Positions 13,376 through 52,546 of a stretch of DNA of 64,000 bases are shown in pieces (the first letter of the stretch is position 1; each line of letters opens with the position of its first letter). The DNA lies in contig NZ_LGCI01000011.1 in NCBI RefSeq assembly GCF_001281525.1, forward strand, positions 89,392 through 153,391, written 5' to 3'. The translations under genes were made by a program, and so were the position numbers. The notes beneath the pieces were generated by a model. The model did no database searches and was not told the origin of the DNA. It saw only the letters and a program-made list of their open reading frames with translations. The stretch is from Lysinibacillus macroides. Its GTDB lineage: Bacteria > Bacillota > Bacilli > Bacillales_A > Planococcaceae.

Positions 13376-13546
13376 TTATAAAACACCACCATTTCCTATT
13401 TGATTTTTTTCTTAAGTCCATACTATAGCAGGTTTTTCACAATTGATACACCCTTTAAGTCAATATTGAAAGTCAATTTTCTAATCTTGACTTACTGAAA
13501 AAAGTATTTATAATAATTGTAATACTTAAAGGAGGATGATTAAAAA

Positions 13547-13591
13547 ATGACACATTCTATGAAGCTTCGTTTTCCGACTTTGGCCCAATAA
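13547..13591 (+). CDS. ErmD-type macrolide-sensing leader peptide
   Basis: Fourteen codons encode MTHSMKLRFPTLAQ, which differs only at two positions from the ErmD/ErmK leader peptide as I recall it (MTHSMRLRFPTLNQ). An AAAGGAGG ribosome binding site lies 11 nt upstream. In the Erm leader, erythromycin-bound ribosomes stall at the MRLR (+x+) motif; here the equivalent is MKLR, also +x+. The peptide is followed by attenuator-like hairpins and an ABC-F gene rather than a methylase. It therefore most likely senses macrolides or ketolides and induces the ABC-F gene. The function is inferred from the near-identity. Confidence 0.85.
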   Translation: MTHSMKLRFPTLAQ

Positions 13592-13633
13592 CTAAATATG
13601 GTCAAAAGCTCTGTTTGTGAAACTAGAGTAAAC

Positions 13634-13654
13634 GGGATAGGTCTGTCCTTTTTT
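13634..13654 (+). terminator. First (weak) attenuator hairpin in the ABC-F leader
   Basis: GGATA-GGTC-TGTCC stem-loop (one G-U pair) followed by T6. It lies shortly after the ErmD-like leader peptide and overlaps one arm of the long-range pairing. Confidence 0.45.
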
Positions 13655-13722
13655 AATCATCTTCATAAGGCTGTAGAGTCATCTTTTTTGTGAGGATAAA
13701 ATAGTATATCTTTGTTACGTTT

Positions 13723-13752
13723 ATCACAGGCAGATTGTCTGTGATTTTTTTT
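13723..13752 (+). terminator. Second attenuator terminator in the ABC-F leader
   Basis: ATCACAG/CTGTGAT stem with a G-U extension and a T8 run, placed 115 nt before the ABC-F start. It would stop transcription before the resistance gene unless prevented. Confidence 0.7.
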
Positions 13753-13767
13753 AGGAGGAGAAGTGCC

Positions 13768-13791
13768 ATGCATATGTTATTGTTCTTTTGA
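13768..13791 (+). CDS. Second short leader ORF (MHMLLFF)
   Basis: Seven codons with an AGGAGGAG ribosome binding site 7-8 nt upstream, between the terminator and the ABC-F gene. The ORF ends at the left arm of a hairpin (13790-13799). A ribosome stalled near its end would disrupt that hairpin, as in ermC-type translational attenuation. The peptide itself is not one I recognise. That it is translated is inferred from the strong ribosome binding site. Confidence 0.55.
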   Translation: MHMLLFF

Positions 13792-13867
13792 TACGAGCTG
13801 TTAAAAAAGCTCGTATCGATGCTATTGCTATCGATACGAAATCAATTTATTTCGGGAGGTAGCAATA
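13790..13867 (+). promoter_or_regulatory. Mutually exclusive hairpins controlling the ABC-F start
   Basis: Segment 1 (13790-13799, GATACGAGCT) pairs with segment 2 (13808-13817). Segment 2 extended (13811-13820, TCGTATCGAT) pairs instead with segment 3 (13830-13839). The loop of the 2:3 hairpin includes most of TATTGCTA (13823-13830), which is complementary to TAGCAATA (13860-13867), the stretch between the GGGAGG ribosome binding site and the ABC-F ATG. So 1:2 pairing frees TATTGCTA to cover the start, while 2:3 pairing would expose it. Confidence 0.6.
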
Positions 13868-15315
13868 TGGAAAAAGTATGCTTTGAATTAGAACATATAG
13901 AAGTTGTTTATTTAGATAAAGAGGTATTAACAATTGAAAAATTAGCGGTGCATCAATTTGATCGCATTGGAATTGTTGGAAAAAATGGTGTAGGTAAAAG
14001 TACGTTAATGAAGTTGCTTGCGGGTAAGGTTCAGCCAACAAGAGGAAAAGTAAAGCGTTATGTGGACTTTGGCTATTTTGAGCAAATGGACGCACCAACA
14101 TTAGCCGAGGCAGATGCCGCATTATTAGGAAAGCTAGCGGTTCCTAAATCTTCTCCCCAGCTAAGTGGTGGCGAACAAACAAGGTTAAAGCTAGCCCAAT
14201 TGTTTTCTACTTATCAGGAAACTCTTCTTATGGATGAACCAACAACGCATTTAGATCAGGCAGGTATTGCATTTTTACTGGATGAATTACGTTACTATTA
14301 TGGAGCATTGCTAGTTATTAGTCATGATCGAGCTGTACTGGATGAACTGGTTACAACAATTTGGGAAGTAGATGAAGGTAAGGTGCATGTCTATTCTGGC
14401 AATTACAGTGATTATGCTGCACAAAAACAACTACAGCGTGAGCAACAAAGCCAAGCGCATAGCCAGTATATAAAAGAAAAAAATCGACTTGAAAAAGCTG
14501 CGGATGAAAAAATGAAAAAAGCTGAAAAAATTACCCAGGCAGGGAGCATGTCAAAAAGAGAAGCAAATGCACCAGCCAATCGTATGTTTATGACAAAGTC
14601 TAAAGGCACAAGTCAAAAGGCTATGCAGCGTGCAGCGAAGGCCATTGAGCATCGACTGGAAAAGCTTCATGCGGTAGAGGCTGTACAGCAAGAGCAAAAA
14701 ATTGTTTTTCGACAATCCAAAGCATTAGCCATGCATAATAAATTTCCGATTATGGCGGATAGACTAAGTTTACAGGTTCAGGATAAGGTGCTATTGGAGG
14801 AAGCGAGCTTTCAAATACCATTAGGTAAAAAAATAGCGCTTACGGGTAGCAATGGCAGTGGAAAAAGTACATTGCTCCGTTATATTTTTCATAAAGGCGA
14901 AGGGCTAATTATTTCACCAAAGGCAAAAATAGGCTATTTCCAGCAAATGAGTTATCAGTTTACGAGTGAGGAAACGGTCTTGCAGTTTTTAAAAAACCGT
15001 TCAGATTATGAGGAAGGTTTATTGCGTAGTGTTCTCCATGCTATGCAATTTGATGGTACAGATTTACAAAAAAGTGTGATGTCCTTAAGTGGTGGAGAAG
15101 CTATACGTCTTCAGCTCTGCCAGCTATTTCTGGGAGAGTATAATATTTTACTGTTGGATGAACCGACAAATTTTTTAGATATTCTCGCACTTGAAGCACT
15201 CGAGCAATTCATAGCTGCCTATGAGGGAACAATACTTTTTGTCACACATGATAAAAGCTTTATAGAGAATGTAGCTGACTTACAGTTCACGATTTGTGAT
15301 AAAAAAATAAAGTAA
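13867..15315 (+). CDS. ABC-F ribosomal protection protein (Msr/Vga/VmlR-like)
   Basis: A 482-residue tandem ATPase without membrane segments. Domain 1: Walker A GKNGVGKST (38-46), LSGGEQ (99-104), LLMDEPTTHLD (120-130). Domain 2: Walker A GSNGSGKST (about 327-335), LSGGEAIRL (about 405), LLLDEPTNFLD (about 423). The long interdomain linker (about 175-300; charged helix with MFMTKSKGTSQKAMQRAAKAIE) is of the antibiotic-resistance ABC-F type that reaches the peptidyl-transferase centre and dislodges drugs. ATG at 13867 follows GGGAGG; an in-frame ATG at 13819 lies in the leader hairpins. The leader with an ErmD-like peptide argues for induction by macrolides. The exact drug range (macrolide, lincosamide, streptogramin A, pleuromutilin) is not predictable. 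Confidence 0.9.
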   Translation: MEKVCFELEHIEVVYLDKEVLTIEKLAVHQFDRIGIVGKNGVGKSTLMKLLAGKVQPTRGKVKRYVDFGYFEQMDAPTLAEADAALLGKLAVPKSSPQLSGGEQTRLKLAQLFSTYQETLLMDEPTTHLDQAGIAFLLDELRYYYGALLVISHDRAVLDELVTTIWEVDEGKVHVYSGNYSDYAAQKQLQREQQSQAHSQYIKEKNRLEKAADEKMKKAEKITQAGSMSKREANAPANRMFMTKSKGTSQKAMQRAAKAIEHRLEKLHAVEAVQQEQKIVFRQSKALAMHNKFPIMADRLSLQVQDKVLLEEASFQIPLGKKIALTGSNGSGKSTLLRYIFHKGEGLIISPKAKIGYFQQMSYQFTSEETVLQFLKNRSDYEEGLLRSVLHAMQFDGTDLQKSVMSLSGGEAIRLQLCQLFLGEYNILLLDEPTNFLDILALEALEQFIAAYEGTILFVTHDKSFIENVADLQFTICDKKIK

Positions 15316-30849: not shown

Positions 30850-31011
30850 AAAAGGAATCCCCTTATGTAGAAGAGGACTCCTGTATAAAACAATAGAAGT
30901 TCGTCTTCTCATCTGTAAGGACAAAATCTTGCCCTTTGGAATTAGCACCATACTGTTAAGCTGGTTGCTGAGACTTCATCGGGCCACTCTCTCTGTCTCT
31001 CTCGATAAGAA
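30850..31011 (-). promoter_or_regulatory. SAM-I (S-box) riboswitch with terminator
   Basis: Minus strand, aptamer 31011-30906: P1 TTCTTATC pairs with GATGAGAA, then the S-box core GAGAGAGACAGAGAGAGTGG, CCGATGAAGTCTCAGCAACC and TGGTGCTAATTCC with AAGGGCAAG all match the conserved S-box consensus. The expression platform at 30882-30853 is a GGAGTCCTCTT/AAGGGGATTCC terminator hairpin followed by T5. The start of the regulated gene is 35 nt further on. Transcription is expected to stop when SAM is bound. Confidence 0.92.
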
Positions 31012-52255: not shown

Positions 52256-52546
52256 GACGGTAACAAAAGATGAAGGGACGATGGGTGGCTAATGGATAAC
52301 TAATCTTATTTTTTGCACATGAAATTTTATATTTCACGAACAACAAAAATAGGATTAGTCCGCCCATTTTCTATATATAGCAGCTTCAATACTCAATATC
52401 TGTCGGTTTTCTCTTTGATATGCAAAGCAGAAAGCACAGTATTTTTTGTATTGGAGTTATAAATGACGTATGATATTGTTGCGACTAATCCTTCCAAAAT
52501 ACTTGGAGGGATTTTTTTGTTCCTCCAGTTTGAGAGGATGGATACG
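52256..52546 (+). promoter_or_regulatory. Structured leader with attenuator before the second ABC-F gene
   Basis: The left arm 52281-52315 (ATGGGTGG ... ACTAATCTTATTTTTTG) pairs with 52346-52367 (CAAAAATAGGATTAGT ... CCGCCCAT), with a smaller TGAAAT/ATTTCA stem inside. Two tiny overlapping ORFs, MGG and MDN (52281-52303, TAATG junction), lie in the left arm behind GAAGGGA. At 52488-52518, a 10-bp stem with loop and T7 forms an intrinsic terminator about 30 nt before the gene. This is the form of an antibiotic-controlled attenuator. Confidence 0.6.
52488..52518 (+). terminator. Attenuator terminator
   Basis: ATCCTTCCAA pairs with TTGGAGGGAT (one G-U) and T7 follows. It ends about 30 nt before the ABC-F start codon, inside an open frame continuous with the gene. 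Confidence 0.75.

Follow-up and report, generated by a model that had tools for sequence, protein, structure and literature searches.

The Msr-family gene P0001 of the soil bacterium Lysinibacillus macroides is preceded by a leader with two short ORFs, which raises the question of whether macrolides control this gene and, if so, at which level and through how many sensors. The gene lies in a stretch of 64,000 nucleotides of contig NZ_LGCI01000011.1, here called the window. We consider it likely that the leader is a macrolide-inducible switch that acts at two levels, with two different sensor peptides, before a chromosomal msr gene.

The msr locus and its relatives

P0001 encodes a protein of 482 amino acids that scores 762.4 bits in a profile search against NCBIfam NF000168.2, above the curated cut-off of 680, in agreement with the ABC-F target named in a preliminary description of this DNA. 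The closest solved chain is the "Macrolide efflux protein" on the ribosome (5zlu). From 13487 to 13867, the elements follow each other in the order promoter-like site, uORF1, terminator T2, uORF2 and msr gene, and the two ends of this arrangement are:

13487..13514, + strand: sigma-70-type promoter-like site, TTGACT-16-TATAAT, with 11 of 12 consensus matches
13867..15315, + strand: Msr-family ABC-F ribosome-protection gene P0001, assigned by NF000168.2

The promoter-like site is weak evidence by itself, since one such site was found and 2.7 were expected in shuffles. The fold of the 369-nt leader is more stable than that of all 100 dinucleotide shuffles (z -5.86). No Rfam family matches the leader, and a search of a phage collection with the leader gave no match. 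The two Rfam matches elsewhere in the window are an ncr1575 sRNA (52260-52518, + strand) and a SAM riboswitch (30906-31011, - strand).

Relatives of P0001 were gathered from a first genome set (28 loci) and from further genomes of the genus (16 of 32), the family (70 of 261) and a draw from the class (47 of 398). The upstream region is identical in L036, from a genome of the same genus, and L006 (L. capsici). In total, 136 upstream pieces were collected, of which 120 were distinct. The uORF1 alignment is restricted to the 37 loci with a long ErmDL-type leader and excludes shorter types, for example MFSIRLR. The uORF2 set contains 82 distinct sequences from 98 of the 129 usable upstream pieces, with some genomes fetched twice, and the alignment of the gate before msr contains 59 loci.

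An ErmDL-type leader and a proposed transcriptional switch

The 14-codon leader ORF with a strong ribosome binding site (RBS) that had been described is present at the following positions:

13530..13535, + strand: Shine-Dalgarno sequence of uORF1, AGGAGG, within strand A, read from the sequence
13547..13591, + strand: uORF1, MTHSMKLRFPTLAQ, an ErmDL-type macrolide-stall peptide (K6-L7-R8), from 37 aligned relatives

Like the ErmDL/ErmKL-type leaders, uORF1 combines an MTH[S/A]M[R/K]LR peptide with a good RBS, and it has a lysine in place of Arg6. Arrest of ErmDL is macrolide-dependent and occurs with Leu7 in the P site, and at position 4 the erythromycin arrest is reported to tolerate only Ser, Ala or Gly (PMC8298421). 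In 29 leaders of the MT type, this position is occupied by Ser in 19, Ala in nine and Leu in one. A +x+ leader before an msr gene is of a kind already published and not new, as such leaders are tabulated before msr(A), msr(C) and mef/msr(D) in PMC4335068 (Table 3). The name ErmD-type, used in the preliminary description, is borne out by both the peptide and the RNA scaffold; it fits the whole RNA, not the peptide alone, because an erm(D)-annotated gene of Bacillus licheniformis has the same scaffold in front of it. In eight Sporosarcina-like msr loci (L050, L053, L061, L062, L064, L067, L068 and L008), no ErmDL-type uORF1 was found within 700 nt; they have an RBS-preceded short ORF, MAFLQLY or MGFVQLY, at about -275 to -305 of msr.

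The RNA around uORF1 contains the following elements:

13532..13547, + strand: strand A, RBS and start of uORF1, 5' arm of the anti-antiterminator, pairing with 13649-13664
13579..13606, + strand: hairpin H1 round the uORF1 stop codon, from the fold and conserved in the 37-locus alignment
13611..13638, + strand: strand b, 5' strand of the antiterminator (CTGTTTGTG ... GTAAACGGGA), pairing with the 5' flank of T2
13634..13654, + strand: T1, a weak hairpin followed by T6, not conserved as a terminator
13649..13664, + strand: strand D, 3' arm of the anti-antiterminator, complementary to the uORF1 RBS and start
13718..13733, + strand: 3' strand of the antiterminator, overlapping the 5' arm of T2 (CGTTTA / TCACAGGCAG)
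13723..13752, + strand: T2 (Tb in the relatives), an intrinsic terminator

The pairing of the uORF1 start with a downstream strand, claimed to span 13 nt, is longer than that: 13532-13547 and 13649-13664 form 16 contiguous pairs, one of them G-U, and none of 200 shuffles contained a pairing as long. The A:D duplex has z < -2 in 34 of the 37 relatives, and a number of loci, among them L082, L083, L089, L097, L110 and L141, have changes in one strand that are matched in the other. The RNA blocks conserved beyond the peptide in the 37 loci are the start GGAGGATTATTAAAAAATG, the stop-codon hairpin, CTCTG...CAGAGTAAACGGGA and AGTCTGTCCTTTTTTAATAATCTTC. On the 5' side of the last terminator, the relatives contain CCCTTTACTC..ATCACAGGCAG, which is complementary to CTGTTTGTG..GAGTAAA.GGGA, and the antiterminator duplex has z < -2 in 31 of 32 relatives (median -21.5 kcal/mol). 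The A:D pairing and the antiterminator pairing are mutually exclusive. T2, at -12.2 kcal/mol, is the sole terminator reported by the consensus scan.

These pairings suggest that the first level would be transcriptional and gated by uORF1 in an ermK-like manner. In a ribosome-free leader, the RBS and start of uORF1 would be held by 13649-13664 in the anti-antiterminator, which would keep strand b off the T2 flank and allow T2 to form. A macrolide-held ribosome at K6-L7-R8 would open the anti-antiterminator at a time when the RNA polymerase is still upstream of T2, and the freed strand b would then pair with the 5' flank of T2, so that the polymerase reads through.

In folding models of RNAs that end at 13734-13742, the antiterminator is at 0.00-0.04 and the anti-antiterminator at 0.95-0.99 without a ribosome, and the antiterminator rises to 0.95-1.00 with a ribosome anywhere on uORF1. 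There is no switch in the model if A:D is allowed to form across the ribosome. Once T2 is complete (RNA ends 13746-13752), the antiterminator is at 0.12-0.20 with the ribosome at codon 9 and at most at 0.39 with it anywhere tested; the equilibrium favours T2, and the antiterminator dominates only from an RNA end of about 13754 on. Among the relatives, the terminator falls below 0.6 with a ribosome on uORF1 in only eight of 36 in the equilibrium model, and in a ninth, L009, it is low throughout the scan. The first-level switch must therefore be kinetic, and on these models the kinetic requirement would be its weakest step. The equilibrium footprint scans gave mixed results and were set aside as proof of a transcriptional switch. 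Since any ribosome on uORF1 switches the model before T2 is made, even one at the stop codon, the drug dependence must come from the dwell time. The stall codons might themselves pair with AAACGGGATTAGTCT (R:R'), but this was rejected as weak (11 of 37). An antiterminator acting against the first terminator of the relatives, Ta, through the GTCTGTCC strand is a possibility judged by complementarity, with z < -2 in only nine of 21.

uORF2 and a proposed translational gate

The second ORF of the preliminary description, MHMLLFF, is present downstream of T2:

13753..13758, + strand: Shine-Dalgarno sequence of uORF2, AGGAGG, read from the sequence
13768..13791, + strand: uORF2, MHMLLFF, an MsrDL-like peptide

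That description missed that uORF2 is a conserved MsrDL-like peptide and probably a second macrolide sensor, as suggested by its sequence in the relatives. Of 113 distinct upstream sequences, 81 contain a uORF2 motif at -112 to -90 of msr, compared with a mean of 0.10 and a maximum of 2 over 50 rounds of dinucleotide shuffling. When the motif was restricted to M..LLF[FY], the count was 68 in these 113 sequences and 0 in the shuffles. In the set of 82, the RBS-preceded uORF2 of 6-8 codons is placed at -93 to -108 in 81 sequences and at -77 in one. The residue before the last (N-1) is Phe in all 82; N-2 is Leu in 76, Ile in four and Phe in two, and N-3 is Leu in 79, Pro in two and Ile in one, in a collection whose search motif allowed several residues at each place. 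All six leucine codons (TTA, TTG, CTA, CTT, CTC and CTG) are in use, as expected under selection on the peptide. uORF2 is also kept in loci for which no uORF1 was detected within 700 nt (for example, L044, L045, L046 and L113).

MsrDL (MYLIFM) arrests the ribosome at its stop codon with erythromycin and cladinose macrolides; contact with the drug or its sensing is assigned to Leu3 and Ile4, and a block of the release factors to Phe5 (PMC10314930; the residue roles are restated in PMC12121999). It is located at -99 of msrD and ends in L-I-F-M-stop, and uORF2 ends in L-L-F-[F/Y] in the same order and at the same distance. Thus, uORF2 has the 6-8 codons, the L-[I/L]-F-X-stop ending and the position about 100 nt before msr of an MsrDL-type leader; the intrinsic terminator that follows such a leader before msr is absent here. 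MYLIFM itself is present in four of the 82 distinct sequences, and MWLLFM, MWLLFL and MYLLFY bridge the other variants to it. Within uORF2, the TTCTTT at 13782-13787 conforms to TTNTTT, a NusG pause motif reported inside msrDL (PMC10314930).

Downstream of uORF2, there are four segments with alternative pairings:

13790..13799, + strand: segment 1, which begins inside the uORF2 stop codon
13808..13820, + strand: segment 2, pairing with 1 or 3
13825..13842, + strand: segment 3, pairing with 2 or 4
13849..13865, + strand: segment 4, which encloses the msr Shine-Dalgarno sequence GGGAGG at 13854-13859

The presence of the three alternative hairpins noted upstream of the ABC-F start is confirmed, and they are conserved among the relatives. 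As in an erm-type attenuator, the conserved 1:2 and 3:4 pairings and the conserved 2:3 pairing are mutually exclusive, and the Shine-Dalgarno sequence lies in 3:4. In the 59 aligned loci, 93.8% of the cells are paired in helix 1:2, and 86.5% and 76.5% in the two parts of 3:4, which are partly lost to alignment shifts. Eight pairs in these helices were changed on both sides, more than in any of 500 shuffles. For helix 2:3, 100% of the cells are paired, compared with 4.5-34.7% in slid controls, and it is the only helix that RNAalifold recovers from alignment A1. The covariation that the preliminary description would have looked for in related genomes is seen as matched changes in A:D and in 1:2/3:4 but is thin for 2:3, since the 2:3 sequence varies little.

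The second level would be translational and gated by uORF2 as an MsrDL-like sensor. In the read-through RNA, the msr RBS would be closed by 3:4. A ribosome held at the uORF2 stop codon covers segment 1, since segment 1 starts inside this codon, and a macrolide-bound ribosome at the stop of MHMLLFF would therefore leave 2:3 to pair and the msr RBS to open. In a model with the P site at the last codon of uORF2, 70 of the 82 sequences (66 of 78 without the msrD types) show an opening of the msr RBS that is increased 10-fold or more. In the window, it rises from 0.0003 to 0.05; over the 82 sequences, the median rise is 453-fold, with an absolute median of 0.010 and values above 0.5 in six. No U run was seen by eye after the 1:2 or 3:4 hairpins in the 59 aligned sequences, which indicates a translational gate, unlike that of MsrDL.

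The gate was also cast as a covariance model, R1, and a search of the 398 genomes of the class (Bacilli) gave 24 matches in 23 genomes. Of these matches, 22 were located just before msr homologs already collected from these class genomes, one before a mef-like gene (G109), and one weak match was found in G408 (L201). At about 1500-1590 in L201, the 3' half of the gate stands alone and is followed by a short ORF with an Msr-like start that soon stops, and thus represents a remnant.

Alternative explanations

The two levels of control put forward in the preliminary description are supported by the conserved transcriptional and translational pairings; stalling at both peptides, the drug specificity and the order of events we infer from relatives that have been characterized. 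That description also had two consecutive terminators, T1 (13654) and T2, both used for attenuation. Its T2 is a good terminator. T1 has a hairpin of -5.2 kcal/mol and six T in the window, and the relatives contain serial terminators, Ta and Tb, as reported for erm(K) (PMC4335068). However, their Ta (AGAAAGGCAGA..TCTGCCTTTCT) lies further downstream than T1, with no clear Ta in the window, and the T1 hairpin is weak in the family, with a median of -2.2 in the 37 relatives, one of which is at or below -5 and 30 above -3, so that T1 is rejected as a terminator at the family level. The T-run at 13649-13654 pairs with the A-run before the AUG of uORF1, and T1 fits the 3' arm of the anti-antiterminator better than a terminator; possibly, it also serves as a pause site. 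We regard attenuation at both T1 and T2 as improbable.

The role of uORF2 may also be explained differently. If uORF1 were the single sensor and acted at transcription like a copy of ermK, for which transcriptional attenuation by one leader is described (PMC4335068), uORF2 would be a translated spacer that opens the gate constitutively, and the modelled opening of the RBS with a ribosome on uORF2 is indeed modest in absolute terms. A spacer, however, needs neither the Leu at N-3 (79/82) and Leu or Ile at N-2 (80/82) nor the invariant Phe at N-1, all kept through synonymous change, and this explanation is further at odds with the start of segment 1 inside the stop codon and with the presence of uORF2 in loci without a detected uORF1; it seems quite unlikely. 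It is also unlikely, if somewhat easier to imagine, that uORF2 senses drugs other than erythromycin-type macrolides, such as lincosamides, streptogramins or 16-membered macrolides, and that the two peptides widen the range of inducers. For short uORFs of other ABC-F genes (MIN, MRI and MKL/Q), responses to lincosamides and pleuromutilins are indeed described (PMC9226507, PMC10201436), but uORF2 matches MsrDL, which responds to cladinose macrolides (PMC10314930), and the protected genes msr, mef and mph are macrolide genes.

If the preferred reading of two macrolide sensors at two levels is true, two independent drug readings would be required before a costly ribosome-protection factor is made, and the second would rely on the one mode of arrest that has been reported for MsrDL to date. 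The natural variants of uORF2, of which there are more than 70 (MWLLFM, MYLLFY, MQFLLFF, MGMLLFY and others), would provide a ready sequence-function series for arrest at the stop codon.

Leader parts before other genes

A plasmid BLASTN search with the leader of L018 as the query returned 25 records, of which 12 were inspected. The scaffold precedes an ErmD-annotated gene in one of these 12 (L172), mef(F)-msr(G) in L169, L170 and L173, a split mef followed by msr in L171, a macrolide 2'-phosphotransferase gene in L174, L175 and L176, and a putative RNA methyltransferase gene followed by msr in L167 and L168. In the latter two, an rlmA-II-like gene is placed directly 5' of msr without uORF2, and the uORF1 scaffold stands in front. 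Partial scaffold matches precede an SDR oxidoreductase gene in L177, a Latilactobacillus curvatus plasmid, and L178 (2440-2853), an Acinetobacter variabilis plasmid. The uORF at the scaffold position in L178 is MIDILTLNR, which lacks the +x+ motif, and this SDR enzyme may therefore be part of a different drug response.

On chromosomes, the order uORF1-mph-uORF2-msr is found in four Planococcus loci (L011-L014) and in L164, and six of seven loci have uORF1-rlmA-II-like-msr without uORF2 (L015, L018, L019, L024, L086 and L087); no leader was found in the seventh, L088, in which the rlmA-II-like gene also directly precedes msr. All 12 mef-msr loci (L155-L162, L169-L171 and L173) contain the gate before msr, 11 contain uORF1 before mef, and seven contain a second, weaker gate before mef (37-52 bits). 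The neighboring genes are named by resemblance, since their scores are below the NCBIfam cut-offs (299.8 of 675 for Mef(A), 564.6 of 612 for MphL and 163 of 303 for PRK11088). In the 398 genomes, the leader pattern was matched in 10, always before msr or mph-msr; for one of these, G612, the gene was recognized by visual inspection of the initial part of its ORF. In a plasmid collection, CP031730.1 and CP065518.1, labelled Stenotrophomonas rhizophila, contain a leader and an msr close to those of Lysinibacillus and are possibly mislabelled or mixed assemblies. If the switch operates as proposed, macrolide-response genes could be recognized from their leader, since one scaffold is reused in front of erm, msr, mef, mph and rlmA-II-like genes.

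Comparison with known systems

The erm(D)/erm(K) leader of B. licheniformis has the same peptide type and surrounding scaffold as the window, including the start complement, the antiterminator and the terminator, but serves a methyltransferase gene rather than msr. L172 (NZ_CP021671.1) contains the RBS/start complement, CAGAGTAAACGGGA, two terminators and CCCTTTACTC-CACAGGCAG; of the two terminators in series that mark ErmDL/ErmKL leaders, the window has a clear Tb/T2 and the weak T1, with nothing that clearly resembles Ta. Downstream of Tb, L172 showed neither a uORF2 nor a hairpin gate, and R1 had no match there.

The vmlR leader of Bacillus subtilis, as described in PMC9226507, also contains a uORF-bearing anti-antiterminator, an antiterminator, a terminator and a hairpin that sequesters the Shine-Dalgarno sequence, but it has one tripeptide uORF with lincomycin-type inducers, whereas the window has two uORFs. 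The tlrB (yxjB) leader of the same species combines attenuation of transcription and translation with a +x+ arrest peptide, as here. Unlike the window, it has one leader peptide, is tylosin-specific and uses a single hairpin for both levels, and its sequestering fold also shuts the RBS of the leader itself (PMC6851288). Two leader peptides are described for ermB (PMC8274638). In a literature search that covered few subscription papers, we found no paper on a second uORF before the msr genes of Bacillales, and no tandem of an ErmDL-type transcriptional gate and an MsrDL-like translational gate before one msr.

A further close parallel is mef(A)-msr(D) of Mega/Tn1207, in which two macrolide leader peptides, MefAL and MsrDL, act on one msr as proposed here, although they are separated by mefA and the leaders in the window are not separated by a gene. 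R1 gave no match at E <= 0.1 in three such loci (L137, L138 and L143), and one chance-level match elsewhere in L138 (E 0.12). In a tree of 73 msr proteins, 44 rows including the window form one supported clade, the msrD rows join msr(E), which is without uORF2, and the uORF2 label requires three changes, with placements made unsure by long branches. The likeness of uORF2 to MsrDL may reflect shared descent, transfer or convergence, and need not imply common descent. The double control of msrD by two leaders is reported as transcriptional at both (PMC10314930), whereas the second level appears translational here. Tentatively, one might see in these systems a modular cascade of sensors, in which a +x+ elongation arrest acts on transcription and a termination arrest at the stop codon then acts on translation, with uORF1 serving each operon and uORF2 each gene, and the streptococcal mefA-msrD could be a version of it in which the second level has turned transcriptional.
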